A DNA stretch of 22,674 bases from a virus: IMG/VR virus record IMGVR_UViG_3300031675_000028, positions 1 to 22,674 of that record; one strand, written 5' to 3'. The notes under the pieces were generated by a model. That model saw only the letters and a list, made by a program, of their open reading frames with translations. It had not been told where the DNA came from and did not search any database. The position numbers and the translations under genes are program-made. Positions within the stretch are counted from its first letter, which is position 1; each line of letters begins with the position of its first letter. Shown here piece after piece: positions 10,174 to 22,674 of this stretch.

Positions 10174-11412
10174 TTATCCTGTTACTGGTGTAGCAGGCCA
10201 TTGTTGTGACAATGTATTATCCCATCTAATTACAGGAGCTCTACCTTGTCTTGCATAAGTCGAAGGTTGTCTATTCTGATAAGTGAATGGAGTCTGACCT
10301 TGTCTAGTGTATATACTAGGTGACCTATGTTGATAAGTAAATGGTGTTTGACCTTGTCTAGCATATGTAGACGGTGTTCTATGTTGATAAGTAAATGGTG
10401 TTTGACCTTGTCGTGCATAAGTGCCTGGCTGTCTGTTTTGATAGGTAAATGGTGACTGACCTTGTCGTGCATAAGTGCCTGGCTGTCTGTTTTGATATGT
10501 TGTAGGTGTTTGACCCTGTCTAGCATAAGTTGCCGGCTGTTGTGCAATCCTAGGATATGTCGCAGGTTGTCTGTTTTGATAAGTGAATGGAGTCTGACCT
10601 TGTCTAGCATATGTACTAGGTGTCCTATGTTGATATGTGGTAGGGGTCTGACCTTGTCTTGCATAAGTAAACGGTGACCTATTGTTATAGGTGAATGGAG
10701 TCTGACCCTGTCTTGCATAAGTCGCTGGAGTACGAGCACTTCTTGGATATGTACTAGGTGTCCTATGTTGATATGTGGTAGGGGTCTGACCTTGTCTTGC
10801 ATAAGTAAACGGTGACCTATTCTGATAAGTCGTAGGTGTTTGCCCTTGTCTAGCATAAGTCGCTGGAGTACGAGCACTTCTTGGATATGTACTAGGTGTC
10901 CTATGTTGATATGTGGTAGGGGTCTGACCTTGTCTTGCATAAGTAAACGGTGACCTATTGTTATAGGTGAATGGAGTCTGACCCTGTCTAGCATAAGTCG
11001 CTGGAGTACGAGCACTTCTTGGATATGTGGCAGGTGTCCTTGCCTGATAAGTGAACGGTTGTCTCGCTGCATTCTGATAAGTGAACGGTGACCTTGCATT
11101 ATAAGTGTAAGGTTGTCTCATTGCCCTCTGATAAGTGAACGGTGACCTTGCATTATAAGTGTAAGGTTGTCTTGCATTATAAGTGTAAGGTTGTCTTGCA
11201 TATGCAATTGCTGGTTGTTGACCATTCGCAGGGTACGTTGCTGGGTACGATACTTGATAAGTGAACGGTGACCTTGCATTAAACGTAAACGGACTTTGAA
11301 TATTAAACGTAAACGGACTTTGAATATTATAAGTAGACGGCGTCTGAATATTATAAGTAGACGGCTGTTGTGAGTTTCCGATGGTTGGTTGTTGAGCGTT
11401 ACCTATAGGCAT
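10174..11412 (-). CDS. Tyr/Pro/Thr-rich octad-repeat protein (structural or adhesive, inferred)
   Basis: I place the start at 11412 (MPIGNAQQP, 412 residues). This gives a TAATG overlap with the upstream gene, a good ribosome site (GGGAG) and the same opening as the paralogue at 20914-21813 (MPTGQQP). An in-frame ATG exists 15 bases upstream. Nearly the whole protein consists of units of the form xxPxTYxx, such as QTPFTYQN, RSPFTYAR and RTPSTYPR, with an optional two-residue extension (QG or SA). Lys, Asp, Glu and Cys are absent from the repeats and Arg is frequent, so the array is strongly basic. Three copies of a 46-residue super-repeat are encoded at 10613-11040. The short C-terminus (RAPVIRWDNTLSQQWPATP) is non-repetitive. 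No known family is recognised. The late context suggests a virion surface component. A strong terminator follows. Confidence 0.8.
   Translation of the reverse strand: MPIGNAQQPTIGNSQQPSTYNIQTPSTYNIQSPFTFNIQSPFTFNARSPFTYQVSYPATYPANGQQPAIAYARQPYTYNARQPYTYNARSPFTYQRAMRQPYTYNARSPFTYQNAARQPFTYQARTPATYPRSARTPATYARQGQTPFTYNNRSPFTYARQGQTPTTYQHRTPSTYPRSARTPATYARQGQTPTTYQNRSPFTYARQGQTPTTYQHRTPSTYPRSARTPATYARQGQTPFTYNNRSPFTYARQGQTPTTYQHRTPSTYARQGQTPFTYQNRQPATYPRIAQQPATYARQGQTPTTYQNRQPGTYARQGQSPFTYQNRQPGTYARQGQTPFTYQHRTPSTYARQGQTPFTYQHRSPSIYTRQGQTPFTYQNRQPSTYARQGRAPVIRWDNTLSQQWPATPVTG
10613..11040 (-). repeat. Tandem 138-bp super-repeat in the 412-residue protein gene
   Basis: The same DNA block recurs at a spacing of 138 bases: anchors at 10721, 10859 and 10997 begin identically. 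The first 101 bases of the 10721 and 10859 copies are identical, and 10613-10720 matches the later part of the copy ending at 10996 almost base for base. The period equals 46 codons, made of units of 10, 8, 10, 8 and 10 residues. High DNA identity, beyond what protein conservation needs, suggests recent duplication or ongoing unequal recombination. Confidence 0.92.
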
Positions 11413-13235
11413 TAGAATTTCTCCCATGCATTATGAACCAACACACCTTCAGTAAAGTAGGTATGCGTATGTTCAATCTCGGCCAAATGGTAAACTGTTG
11501 CAGTATCTTTAGACTCTATAGAATCTACTTTCACGGAACTTTCTCCCATGGTAAAGACTTCGTCTCCTACCGCTAATAATCCTGTAATATCACAACCCCA
11601 ATCCACGCCCTCTGCTATCTCAGCATCATAACATTCTTGGTTTGCAAATTTCCAACCTGAATCAGTATGTATTGGATGTCCACCTGTTACACCTAGTGTC
11701 TTACCGTTAGATAATTTAACATCATAGACTTTAATATTTTCTCTTGGAACCATAATTCTATTAACATTCTGTGGCATTAACTTCATGTGTGAGAAGTCGA
11801 AAGTCATTACTGAATCACCTACCACAACATCTTCTATGTTTGTGTATGAGTTGTTTGCCATCCAAATTTGTGTTCCAGCGACGAAACAACCACCACCGCC
11901 ACCAAATGGGTATGTGAAAGGGTTTCTATGGTTGTATGTGACAGGTGATCTAGTGTTACCAATAGAAGGTGATCTAGTGTTACCAATAGAAGGATTTCTT
12001 CCTTGTCCAATAGAAGGATTTCTTCCTTGTCCAATAGAAGGGCTTTGACCATTCGCAGGGTACGTTGCTGGGTACGATACTTGATAAGTGAATGGACTTC
12101 TCTGATTAAAACTGAAAGGAGTCTGACCATTCGCGATATAAGGGGTTTGGCCATTCGCAATATAAGGTTGTTGTGCAGCTGCAGGATATGTAAATGGTGT
12201 TTGACCAGCTGCAATATATGGTTGTTGTGCGTTAGCAGGATATGTAAATGGGGTTTGGCCATTCGCAATATAAGGTTGTTGATAGTTTGCCTGATAAGTA
12301 TATGGTTGTTGATAGTTTGCTATATACGGATACGGTTGTTGTGCAGATGCAATGTATGGTTGTTGTCCAGCAGCGATATAAGGATATGCATTCTGTCTAT
12401 TTGCAATACTTGGAGTCTGTGCAGCTGCCTGATAAGTATATGGTTGTTGATAGTTTGCAATATAAGGATATGCATTCTGTCTATTTGCAATATATGGTTG
12501 TTGTCCAGCAGCGATATAAGGATATGCATTCTGTCTATTTGCAATACTTGGAGTCTGTGCAGCTGCCTGATAAGTATATGGTTGTTGATAGTTTGCTATA
12601 TACGGATACGGTTGTTGTGCAGATGCAATGTATGGTTGTTGTCCAGCAGCGATATAAGGATAAGCATTCTGTCTACTAGCAATACTTGGAGTCTGTGCCG
12701 CTGCAATATAAGGGTATGGTTGTTGTGCTGATGCAATATAAGGTGTCTGACTTGCCGCCTGATAAGCATAATTTGCTTGAGTATTTGCAATATAAGGGTA
12801 TGCATTTTGTCTACTAGCAATATAAGGTGTCTGTGAATTCGCTATATACGGATACGGTTGCTGTGCAGCTGCAATATAAGGTGTTTGACTTACTGCAATG
12901 TATGGATACGGTTGTTGTGCTGCTGCAATACTTGGAGTCTGTGCCGCGGCAATATAAGGGTATGGTTGTTGTGCGTTAGCAATACTTGGACTCTGTGCAG
13001 ATGCATTATAAGGATAAGATTGTTGTGCTGATGCAATATAAGGTGTCTGTGCTGCTGCAATATAAGGATAAGGTTGCTGTACTGTAGTCTGACCCGATGC
13101 ATTATTCCACCCTGTAGGTGTCTTAACATAAATTTGTTCGGCCGCTGTCCACGTTCCTGAAGCAGTCTTAACCCAACCACCTTGGGTGGCATTCCACCCT
13201 GTAGGTGTTTTGACTTTTTGTGAACCTGTAGCCAT
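11412..13235 (-). CDS. Repeat protein with C-terminal Hint (intein-like) domain
   Basis: This 607-residue protein has three parts. Residues 1-50 carry two copies of KTPTGWN and a related VKTASGTW segment, a short motif seen in phage tail proteins. Residues ~50-444 are repeats of the type QxPYIAxx (8 residues) alternating with QxPYPYIAxx (10 residues), changing near the end to PFTYP-type and RNPSIGxx units. After a Gly run comes a Hint domain at 450-602 with Cys450, block B GVTGGHPIH (Thr517, His520) and C-terminal block YFTEGVLVHN, followed by a five-residue tail AWEKF. Hint domains catalyse self-cleavage or splicing. The tail starts with Ala rather than Cys/Ser/Thr, which fits a bacterial intein-like domain that cleaves rather than splices. 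The gene follows TATAAATA at 13286-13279 and has ribosome site AGGAA. Its stop overlaps the next ATG. Confidence 0.88.
   Translation of the reverse strand: MATGSQKVKTPTGWNATQGGWVKTASGTWTAAEQIYVKTPTGWNNASGQTTVQQPYPYIAAAQTPYIASAQQSYPYNASAQSPSIANAQQPYPYIAAAQTPSIAAAQQPYPYIAVSQTPYIAAAQQPYPYIANSQTPYIASRQNAYPYIANTQANYAYQAASQTPYIASAQQPYPYIAAAQTPSIASRQNAYPYIAAGQQPYIASAQQPYPYIANYQQPYTYQAAAQTPSIANRQNAYPYIAAGQQPYIANRQNAYPYIANYQQPYTYQAAAQTPSIANRQNAYPYIAAGQQPYIASAQQPYPYIANYQQPYTYQANYQQPYIANGQTPFTYPANAQQPYIAAGQTPFTYPAAAQQPYIANGQTPYIANGQTPFSFNQRSPFTYQVSYPATYPANGQSPSIGQGRNPSIGQGRNPSIGNTRSPSIGNTRSPVTYNHRNPFTYPFGGGGGCFVAGTQIWMANNSYTNIEDVVVGDSVMTFDFSHMKLMPQNVNRIMVPRENIKVYDVKLSNGKTLGVTGGHPIHTDSGWKFANQECYDAEIAEGVDWGCDITGLLAVGDEVFTMGESSVKVDSIESKDTATVYHLAEIEHTHTYFTEGVLVHNAWEKF
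11430..11888 (-). other. Region encoding Hint domain 1 (complete end motifs)
   Basis: These bases encode residues 450-602 of the 607-residue protein, about the size of a mini-intein without a homing endonuclease. The N-terminal block is CFVAGTQIWM preceded by a Gly run, block B is TGGH, and the C-terminal block ends with His601-Asn602. The Cys codon is at 11888-11886 and the Asn codon at 11432-11430. These residues are what thioester formation and Asn cyclisation require in the intein/BIL/Hedgehog superfamily. Confidence 0.88.
12301..12734 (-). repeat. Tandem 138-bp super-repeat in the 607-residue protein gene
   Basis: Blocks starting at 12355, 12493 and 12631 are spaced by exactly 138 bases. 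12355-12458 is identical to 12493-12596 over 104 bases, and 12301-12354 is identical to 12577-12630 (two periods apart), which gives a mosaic of two alternating sub-blocks. The third copy has several substitutions. The 46-residue unit is built from 8- and 10-residue motifs (QQPYIANR, QNAYPYIANY, QQPYTYQAAA, QTPSIANR, QNAYPYIAAG). Confidence 0.92.
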
Positions 13236-20913: not shown

Positions 20914-21813
20914 TTAAGTTTGATACTGTGCCGAAGGAACAGATTGATGAACTTTTTCTAATGATCCACTAGAATTTGTAAATACTTCGTCTACTTTTTC
21001 TACACTTCCAGCCTTATTTACAAATACTCCCTTGACTTTTGCAAGTGGCCCGATTGTTCTTGTATTAGTGTATGTAACCTGATAAGCATAAGGTTGTTGA
21101 AAACTATACTGTGTTATGTAAGGCTGTTGGACGATAGTTGGTTGTTGTCCATTTGCAATATAAGGTTGTTGTCCACCGGCTATATACGGATAAGGTTGTT
21201 GTCCGTTTGCAATACTTGGAGTCTGTGTACTTGCAGTATTCTGTACATTGATATTAGTCTGACCATTCGCAATATATGGAGTCTGTGAATTTGCTTGATA
21301 AGCATAAGGGGACTGTGTATTAGCAATATAAGGATACGGTTGTTGTGCATTCGCGATATATGGAGTCTGTGAAGCTGCCTGATAAGCATAAGGTTGTTGT
21401 GAAGTCGATTGTCCATTTGCAATACTTGGAGTCTGTGCAGAGGCCTGATAAGGGTATGTAGTCTGTGCTTGTCTAGCATAGGTAAACGGTGTCTGAGTAA
21501 TCGTTGGATGTTGATAGATACTCGGTGTTCTATGTTGATAGGTACTCGGATGCTGATAAGTAACCTGTGCAATCCTAGGATATGTGCCTGGCTGTCTATT
21601 AGAATAGGTAAATGGAGACTGTGCAGAGGCTATATATGGATAAGGTATTCGGCCAACAGCAATCGCTTGCACCACAGCTTGAGCTTGTCTCGCATAAGTA
21701 AATGGAGACTGTGCATTTGCAATAATGGGTTGTTGTGCGTTAGCAGTATACCCATATGGGGTTTGACCTATTGCTGGAATTGTATAAGGATATGGTTGTT
21801 GACCTGTAGGCAT
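20914..21813 (-). CDS. Tyr/Pro/Gln-rich repeat protein with mixed unit types
   Basis: This 299-residue protein starts MPTGQQPYPYTIPAIGQTPY. Residues ~1-240 mix both repeat classes found at 10174-13235: YIA-type units (QTPYIANG, QQPYPYIAGG) and TY-type units (QTPFTYAR, RTPSIYQH, RQPGTYPR). No Lys, Asp or Glu occurs in this part. The C-terminal ~50 residues (LAKVKGVFVNKAGSVEKVDE and VFTNSSGSLEKVHQ) are two copies of a V.gVFvN.sGs.eKV motif reminiscent of the VYVK..G.WK.V repeats of phage tail proteins. The start overlaps the stop of the upstream Hint-containing gene (TAATG). This is the same gene order as in the cassette at 10174-13235, so the two pairs are probably related by duplication. Function is unknown; a virion surface role is inferred. 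Confidence 0.8.
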   Translation of the reverse strand: MPTGQQPYPYTIPAIGQTPYGYTANAQQPIIANAQSPFTYARQAQAVVQAIAVGRIPYPYIASAQSPFTYSNRQPGTYPRIAQVTYQHPSTYQHRTPSIYQHPTITQTPFTYARQAQTTYPYQASAQTPSIANGQSTSQQPYAYQAASQTPYIANAQQPYPYIANTQSPYAYQANSQTPYIANGQTNINVQNTASTQTPSIANGQQPYPYIAGGQQPYIANGQQPTIVQQPYITQYSFQQPYAYQVTYTNTRTIGPLAKVKGVFVNKAGSVEKVDEVFTNSSGSLEKVHQSVPSAQYQT

Positions 21814-22674
21814 TATGCAATGTCCTCAATGTTTAAGTCTTTAACAACACTATCTACCATTACACCATTTGCATACCAGTTACCCTGTTTTGTTAGTAAT
21901 GCATAGTTATCATGTGTGCCTGCATATGCAGTTATACTAGTAACTTCTTCTGTTGTTCCATCACCCTTCATCATAACATCACCAATTACAAGTTGATCTA
22001 CCTCTAGTCCATAGTTTACCATTGTTAGTTCAGGATTAACCGATGCTCGTCTTCCACCACTCAAACCTGCTGACCCATCCATTTTATGTCTACGCATTCC
22101 GTCTGATAAGTATATTGGGTGATCTTCTGTTAGTAACAAGTCATTAACTTGGTACTCACAATCTCTTGGGATCAGAACCTTATGGACTATTGGAGTTAAC
22201 ATCTTACCACCACCTAAGAAGTCATATGCATAAACCATATCTCCAACCGATAGTGTACTAACATTAACTTCTCCATCTGCTGTCTCTACGGTCATATTTA
22301 CATGGACACAACAGCCTGGACATTCTTCTTCCGTTAAGTTAACATCAATTAACATATCCAAGTTCAGTGTATGTGTTGTATCTCCTGACTTTTCAAAGAT
22401 TAATGAAAATCTAGCACGACTTTCTCCTTCACCGGCACCAATACACACTTTATTCAAATTACACTCTCTCATGCTTGAGGTGACTGATGTAGCTGATGTT
22501 GTTATGGTGCCACTAAATGAAGTAGAGCCGTCCCCACCGTCATATGTAGAAAATCCACTCCAATAGGCAGTAGTTCGTCTAACCGTGTATCCTGAAGCGG
22601 CATCCCTAATTCTTCCTATTTCTGCGTAGCTACTAAAATAAGTGACACTTGTGTCAGTCCCAGTTCCATAAGTC
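21813..22674 (-). CDS. Protein ending in a Hint domain (N-terminal part beyond the window)
   Basis: Although an ATG occurs at 22472, the frame stays open to base 22674. The residues before it (TYGTGTDTSVTYFSSYAEIG, then YTVRRTTAYWSGFSTYDGGD) look like ordinary beta-rich structural protein, so I treat the gene as truncated by the window edge, with 286 residues visible. The C-terminal ~165 residues contain a Hint domain: CCVHVNMTVETADG as the N-terminal block, LSVGDMVYAYDF, VLIPRDCEYQV, block B TEDHPIYL, and a final WYANGVMVDS where inteins have ...HN. It is followed by VVKDLNIEDIA. The stop overlaps the ATG of the repeat-protein gene downstream. Predicted activity is N-terminal thioester chemistry with reduced or no C-terminal Asn cyclisation. 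Confidence 0.82.
   Translation of the reverse strand, partial: TYGTGTDTSVTYFSSYAEIGRIRDAASGYTVRRTTAYWSGFSTYDGGDGSTSFSGTITTSATSVTSSMRECNLNKVCIGAGEGESRARFSLIFEKSGDTTHTLNLDMLIDVNLTEEECPGCCVHVNMTVETADGEVNVSTLSVGDMVYAYDFLGGGKMLTPIVHKVLIPRDCEYQVNDLLLTEDHPIYLSDGMRRHKMDGSAGLSGGRRASVNPELTMVNYGLEVDQLVIGDVMMKGDGTTEEVTSITAYAGTHDNYALLTKQGNWYANGVMVDSVVKDLNIEDIA
21849..22310 (-). other. Region encoding Hint domain 2 (C-terminal HN replaced by DS)
   Basis: These bases encode about 154 residues, nearly the same length as Hint domain 1 (153). Two adjacent Cys codons lie at 22313-22308. The TEDH block B is present, and the expected His-Asn pair is Asp-Ser (codons 21854-21849). The PR.....V..L and HPI segments align with domain 1, which shows common ancestry. 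Confidence 0.75.

Follow-up and report, generated by a model that had tools for sequence, protein, structure and literature searches.

A candidate A-type bacterial intein-like domain in the C-terminal glycine linker of a viral repeat protein with a conserved tail lysine

Introduction

Bacterial intein-like (BIL) domains of the A type reportedly go back to Amitai 2003 and Dassa 2004, and to our knowledge little has so far been learnt about the biological role of BIL domains. A-type BILs end in His-Asn and carry no nucleophile at +1, and their proposed chemistry runs through a thioester, Asn cyclisation and ligation by the freed alpha-amine, with the published examples mostly cleaving rather than ligating (PMC4031507). 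BIL2 of the Tetrahymena BUBL1 locus has been reported to form an isopeptide with the epsilon-amine of a Lys, dispensing ubl4 onto other proteins (PMC8616854). Here we describe a Hint domain close to the C-terminus of a viral repeat protein (gene A), best read as an A-type BIL of a phage, in which an amine would resolve the Gly thioester.

Results

The window, meaning the whole stretch of DNA analysed, comprises 22,674 bases and is a complete IMG/VR virus record. The genes between 1 and 5.4 kb include a gp17-like terminase (phrog_5989, phrog_2) with ~55% identity to that of Phage C48C1 (Kyanoviridae), and its neighbours look, by position and by comparison with C48C1, like sheath, gp16, gp15, gp14 and gp13. 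Gene A lies beyond this terminase and structural block, close to tail-fibre-like genes. Pelagimyophages have a hypervariable host-recognition island between VrlC and gp14 (PMC7029224), and we infer that the location of gene A is its counterpart. The source appears to be a marine, bacteria-infecting virus with a repeat-rich tail-region protein that bears a self-cutting domain, and the gene A product is probably a tail or host-recognition appendage.

Gene A (11412..13235, minus strand, as are all features of genes A and B below) encodes a 607-residue repeat protein ending in a Gly run, the Hint domain and the pentapeptide AWEKF. Its conserved N-terminal domain (residues 1-49, MATGSQKVKTPTGWN...WNNASGQ; 13089..13235) holds four of the five Lys found outside the Hint domain (K7, K9, K23, K38 and K606) and is followed by ~395 residues of Tyr/Pro/Gln-rich repeats of a 9-residue type without Lys or Cys (residues 50-444; 11904..13088). 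Structure prediction for these two regions gave no usable fold (pLDDT 34), and no Pfam family was matched in gene A outside the Hint domain, the upstream part being a repeat protein. The Gly run GGGGG (residues 445-449; 11889..11903) forms the N-terminal junction. From there the protein reads ...FTYPFGGGGG-C450FVAGTQIW...VT517GGH520PIHTDSGW...HTYFTEGVLVH601N602-AWEKF-stop. The preliminary description had placed a Hint domain with splicing-type ends at 11430-11888, and these positions are exactly the 153 codons from C450 to N602 of this A-type BIL-like domain. The Cys450, TGGH, VHN, Ala603 and AWEKF that it listed are likewise all in the reading frame, namely the predicted thioester nucleophile Cys450 at position 1 (11886..11888), block B from Thr517 through Gly-Gly to His520 (11676..11687), block G with His601-Asn602 (11430..11435) and the five-residue C-extein (residues 603-607; 11415..11429), in which Lys606 (11418..11420) is the only Lys outside the Hint domain after residue 38.

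When the domain alone was scanned against Pfam, Intein_splicing (8.8e-10) and Vint (5.7e-7) scored above cut-off, while PT-HINT, Hint and Hint_2 were matched more weakly, with PT-HINT below it. A confident Hint fold was predicted for residues 450-602 by AF2 from 25 homologues (mean pLDDT 89.6, pTM 0.86). Likeness to BILs was ranked by structure and by profile. Foldseek placed BIL2 of Tetrahymena BUBL1 at the top (TM by target length 0.81-0.85), then the C. thermocellum BIL (2lwy, 0.85) and then DnaB inteins, and a profile search of PDB sequences returned the same Tetrahymena BIL2 at the top. With Pfam scores above cut-off, a confident fold and structural matches to BILs and inteins, the assignment is not a chance match. 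The profile search and the structure prediction, both of which the preliminary description had proposed, thus agree with its view of a BIL-like domain rather than a standard intein, since the closest structures are BILs and the domain has a His-Asn end with no nucleophile after it. Values of dN/dS between 0.05 and 0.37 in 14 pairs indicate purifying selection on the Hint domain.

Relatives were collected by IMG/VR scans with the Hint domain, the N-terminal domain and the end of protein B (the neighbouring gene product, described below), giving 35 distinct Hint-bearing and 26 Hint-less A proteins. The -1 Gly, Cys1, TxxH or SxxH and His-Asn each occur in 35/35 Hint-bearing homologues, down to ~33% identity, and the five residues that the preliminary description had named are kept throughout the family with one T-to-S change at the Thr517 position. 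At +1 we found Phe (15), Gly (11), Met (4), Tyr (2), Leu, Arg and Ala (one each) and never Cys, Ser or Thr, and tails are 4-29 residues long. Canonical phage inteins retrieved by the same searches almost always have +1 Cys, with a single Ser, so the missing nucleophile is a real property of the family. The preliminary description had set the domain apart from standard inteins by their nucleophilic +1 residue and long C-exteins; this holds for those inteins, but a short tail with a non-nucleophilic +1 residue is the norm here (35/35) and no peculiarity of the window. At the block F position occupied by Asp in class 1 inteins, the family has His or Asn. In one relative (L059) the domain is replaced by another kind of Hint that lacks His-Asn and could not carry out the C-terminal step.

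Hint-less members close with a Gly-rich linker and then a short tail, and matched alleles can be compared across the junction. For example, Hint-less ARTPYQLPGGGSPGHQQK corresponds to Hint-bearing ARQPVFFPGGGRGGG-Hint-RQQK of L292 (around the junction, GGGSPG-HQQK versus GGGRGGG-Hint-RQQK), with ARTPYQLPGGGSPG-HQQK (L094) and ARTPVQIPSGGGPG-HQQK (L319) as Hint-less forms beside it; another occupied allele reads ...PVYYPGGGSPGLPTGHG-Hint-MQKR (L137). Similarly, Hint-less YRFPYFFQSFGGGGTPNFQEP and YRFPYFFQSFGGGG-TPNFQEP (L063) correspond to YRFPYFYTNFQGGGGG-Hint-FNSQETKTFEP (L123). Some occupied and empty pairs align poorly at the tail. Since Hint-less alleles share both linker and tail, the Hint domain interrupts the native C-terminus of the protein, and the tail amounts to a very small C-extein. 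A tree of the N-terminal domain and B shows at least seven changes in Hint presence, an approximate figure given the short alignment.

A Lys is found in the tail of all 35 Hint-bearing proteins, and within the last two residues in 34/35 compared with 9/26 Hint-less ones (Fisher 8.5e-8, a p-value that overstates independence because the sequences are related); 9.9% of 394 other ORFs in the same contigs have Lys there. After clustering of the Hints at 70% identity the tail Lys is retained in 14/14, and across seven independent Hint/no-Hint pairs it occurs in 7/7 Hint-bearing members and 2/7 of their counterparts. In the clade ending in EP, the Hint-bearing L123 has a tail Lys and the Hint-less L063, L086 and L270 have none. 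The repeat regions contain 16 Lys in 10,501 residues and the tails 40 in 316. This near-constant, lone tail Lys of the relatives suggests an unusual form of protein stitching. The view implied in the preliminary description, that the tail is left over, is not supported: linker and tail persist in Hint-less alleles and the Lys is tied to the Hint (35/35 versus 9/26). The tail is therefore more likely to be religated, or itself the acceptor, than discarded.

Gene B (10174..11412) encodes a repeat protein without the N-terminal domain, ending in RAPVIRWDNTLSQQWPATPVTG and free of Lys. The two genes overlap where A stops and B starts, with the first ATG of B at 11427 and an ATG at 11412 suggested by relatives, most of whose B genes start <20 bases from the A stop. 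A and B are paired at every Hint-bearing locus (10174-13235 of the window and 35 related loci); A has the N-terminal domain and B the RWD...WPATPVTS end, both are built of the same repeats, and Cys is absent from B and from the repeats of A. The two look like halves of one appendage. We rejected a frameshift or read-through fusion in which B would be a normal C-extein, since the A-B spacing varies between -16 and +65 bases and no frame is conserved. B lacks Lys in 24/35 loci, so a Lys of this protein is an unlikely acceptor. The N-terminus of B could conceivably be an acceptor, yet many B proteins begin with Met-Pro.

Other Hint domains were also seen. A second, divergent Hint-like domain lies in the window at 21813-22472 on the minus strand (CCVH..., TEDHP, ending ANGVMVDS). 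It lacks His-Asn, and a further repeat protein (20914-21813) comes immediately after it. In L059 a Hint of this kind closes gene A in place of the His-Asn one. Among isolate phages, the N-terminal domain, the C-terminal part of B and this second Hint had no match, and the gene A Hint matched only Vibrio phage proteins, several of them annotated as DNA helicase. A lambda gpI-like tail assembly protein (L138:5158-6465; phrog_32, 6e-41) ends GG-Hint-HN-RQNVGQQIKA, so that another phage protein shows the layout of gene A. Hints whose +1 residues are Val and Lys lie near Gly runs within a tape measure protein and a second large virus protein (L139:2878-6708, L143:5152-7560), and a further virus protein ends in a tandem Hint pair, the last closing with HN-K (L140:4132-6450). 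Among bacterial and archaeal Hints that the same profile retrieved from genomes (L162-L241), +1 is Lys in 64/98, a position that the scan patterns did not include. Many of these proteins end at HN-K or a few residues later (HN-KRIN), and beta-helix, CBM and T4SS-pilin domains are among the exteins. The cellular +1 Lys may reflect shared inheritance rather than repeated selection.

Discussion

We favour, with a probability of roughly 0.55, the reading that gene A carries an A-type BIL within its C-terminal Gly linker and that the tail is rejoined once the Hint domain has left. From Cys1, TxxH and the fold we infer that Cys450 would attack the Gly449-Cys450 bond to give a Gly thioester. With no nucleophile at +1, the thioester would not pass to a +1 side chain and an amine would resolve it. 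In the route proposed for A-type BILs this would be the alpha-amine of the tail, freed as Asn602 cyclises; alternatively, the conserved tail Lys would attack through its epsilon-amine and leave an isopeptide like the one that Tetrahymena BIL2 is reported to form. The Hint domain would then leave and the tail stay joined to the Gly run, forming the C-terminus that Hint-less homologues encode directly. That a Gly thioester might join an amine had been suggested in the preliminary description, and the analogy with BIL2, the nearest solved relative, speaks for it (PMC8616854). The anatomy fits either route, with an unhindered Gly as acyl donor, a Gly-rich or aromatic-started tail to offer the alpha-amine and a Lys to offer the epsilon-amine. 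Self-processing of the gene A protein is highly probable, ligation of the tail about an even bet, and the isopeptide route through Lys a possibility to be held tentatively. Against the favoured reading we count the replacement of the block F Asp by His or Asn, the predominance of cleavage among published A-type BILs, the L059 Hint without His-Asn, the poor tail alignment of some occupied and empty pairs, and the Lys at the end of about one third of the Hint-less members, which may mean that this residue serves a function of the tail itself.

The same predicted thioester might instead, as in the reading of the preliminary description, be hydrolysed or handed to an amine of another protein, such as a virion partner or the host surface, with the tail discarded. 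A-type BILs mainly yield cleavage products (PMC4031507), BIL2 conjugates to outside Lys (PMC8616854), and the ability of the L059 Hint to substitute without His-Asn implies that the N-terminal chemistry may be what matters. A discarded peptide, however, needs no conservation, whereas every Hint-bearing member has a tail Lys and the Hint-less alleles retain the tail; B, without Lys in most loci, would also be a poor Lys acceptor. We regard this outcome as unlikely, if far from negligible. Loss of processing, leaving the Hint domain as a structural C-terminal cap, is improbable: the non-canonical block F residue would suit it, but Cys1, TxxH, His-Asn and the -1 Gly are all invariant, which would be superfluous in a simple cap, and the domain evolves under purifying selection.

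The tail Lys could also be a by-product of the ribosome-binding and start signals of the overlapping gene B, given that most B genes start so near the A stop and that some tails contain a GAGAAA-type sequence. Yet the Lys is kept where B starts 40-48 bases downstream (L044, L054, L061, L080, L083), has AAA in some members and AAG in others as its codon, and is far rarer at this place in the other ORFs of these contigs (9.9%), which makes such an origin very improbable. Returning to an A-type BIL with a rejoined tail, it is a doubtful extension that there is a class of Hints in which a C-extein Lys replaces the +1 Cys, Ser or Thr, its epsilon-amine resolving the Gly thioester so that the flanks become isopeptide-joined. 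In such a class, should it exist, the phage Lys would stand at the end of a short tail and that of many bacterial and archaeal Hints at +1 itself, a proposal we hold equally loosely. Our literature search, largely of openly accessible papers, found no paper on the gene A phage family or on a Hint class with +1 Lys. If the Lys route were true, the domain would be a natural splicing element that forms isopeptides, and it might be put to use for protein ligation. More generally, this family has gained or lost the Hint repeatedly, its occupied alleles can be set beside empty counterparts, and the conserved Lys leads one to expect a particular product, whereby Hint function without a +1 nucleophile becomes testable through one small expressed domain.

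Among described systems, A-type BILs such as that of C. thermocellum (PDB 2lwy) share with gene A the Hint fold, the N-terminal Cys with TxxH, the C-terminal His-Asn, the lack of a +1 Cys, Ser or Thr and a setting in a variable, non-conserved protein region. Gene A differs from them in its phage host, its invariant -1 Gly within a Gly run, its family's Lys-bearing tail of 4-29 residues and the existence of occupied and empty alleles of one gene. B-type BILs have no intein-like block G, which in gene A is present as His601-Asn602. BIL2 of the BUBL1 polyubiquitin-like locus (PDB 6y75, 6tmm) is the best match by fold and profile and hands its upstream segment to an amine, as proposed for gene A, with a reported Lys isopeptide product. 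It has ciliate ubiquitin-like exteins on its flanks where gene A has a repeat protein upstream, shares ~22% identity with the gene A Hint and was crystallised as a C1A/N143A mutant. A Zn-dependent histidine switch belongs to BIL2.

PT-HINT (pretoxin HINT, PF07591) matches the C-terminal part of the gene A Hint at 1.9e-4, below the Pfam cut-off, but polymorphic toxins of this type have a toxin domain after the Hint, whereas gene A has a phage repeat protein as its extein and only AWEKF after the Hint. Class 1 inteins, represented by the DnaB mini-inteins, share the fold and blocks A, B and G; gene A departs from them in having Ala603 at +1, where 0/35 relatives have a nucleophilic residue, in His or Asn instead of Asp at block F position 4, in a short tail as C-extein and in having no homing endonuclease. 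The Hog-Hint of Hedgehog (1at0) has the same Gly-Cys junction and the thioester chemistry proposed here, but it is a weaker fold match (1.7e-5) and has a sterol-recognition region and no His-Asn end, whereas gene A has the His-Asn end, no sterol-recognition region and a stop five residues later.
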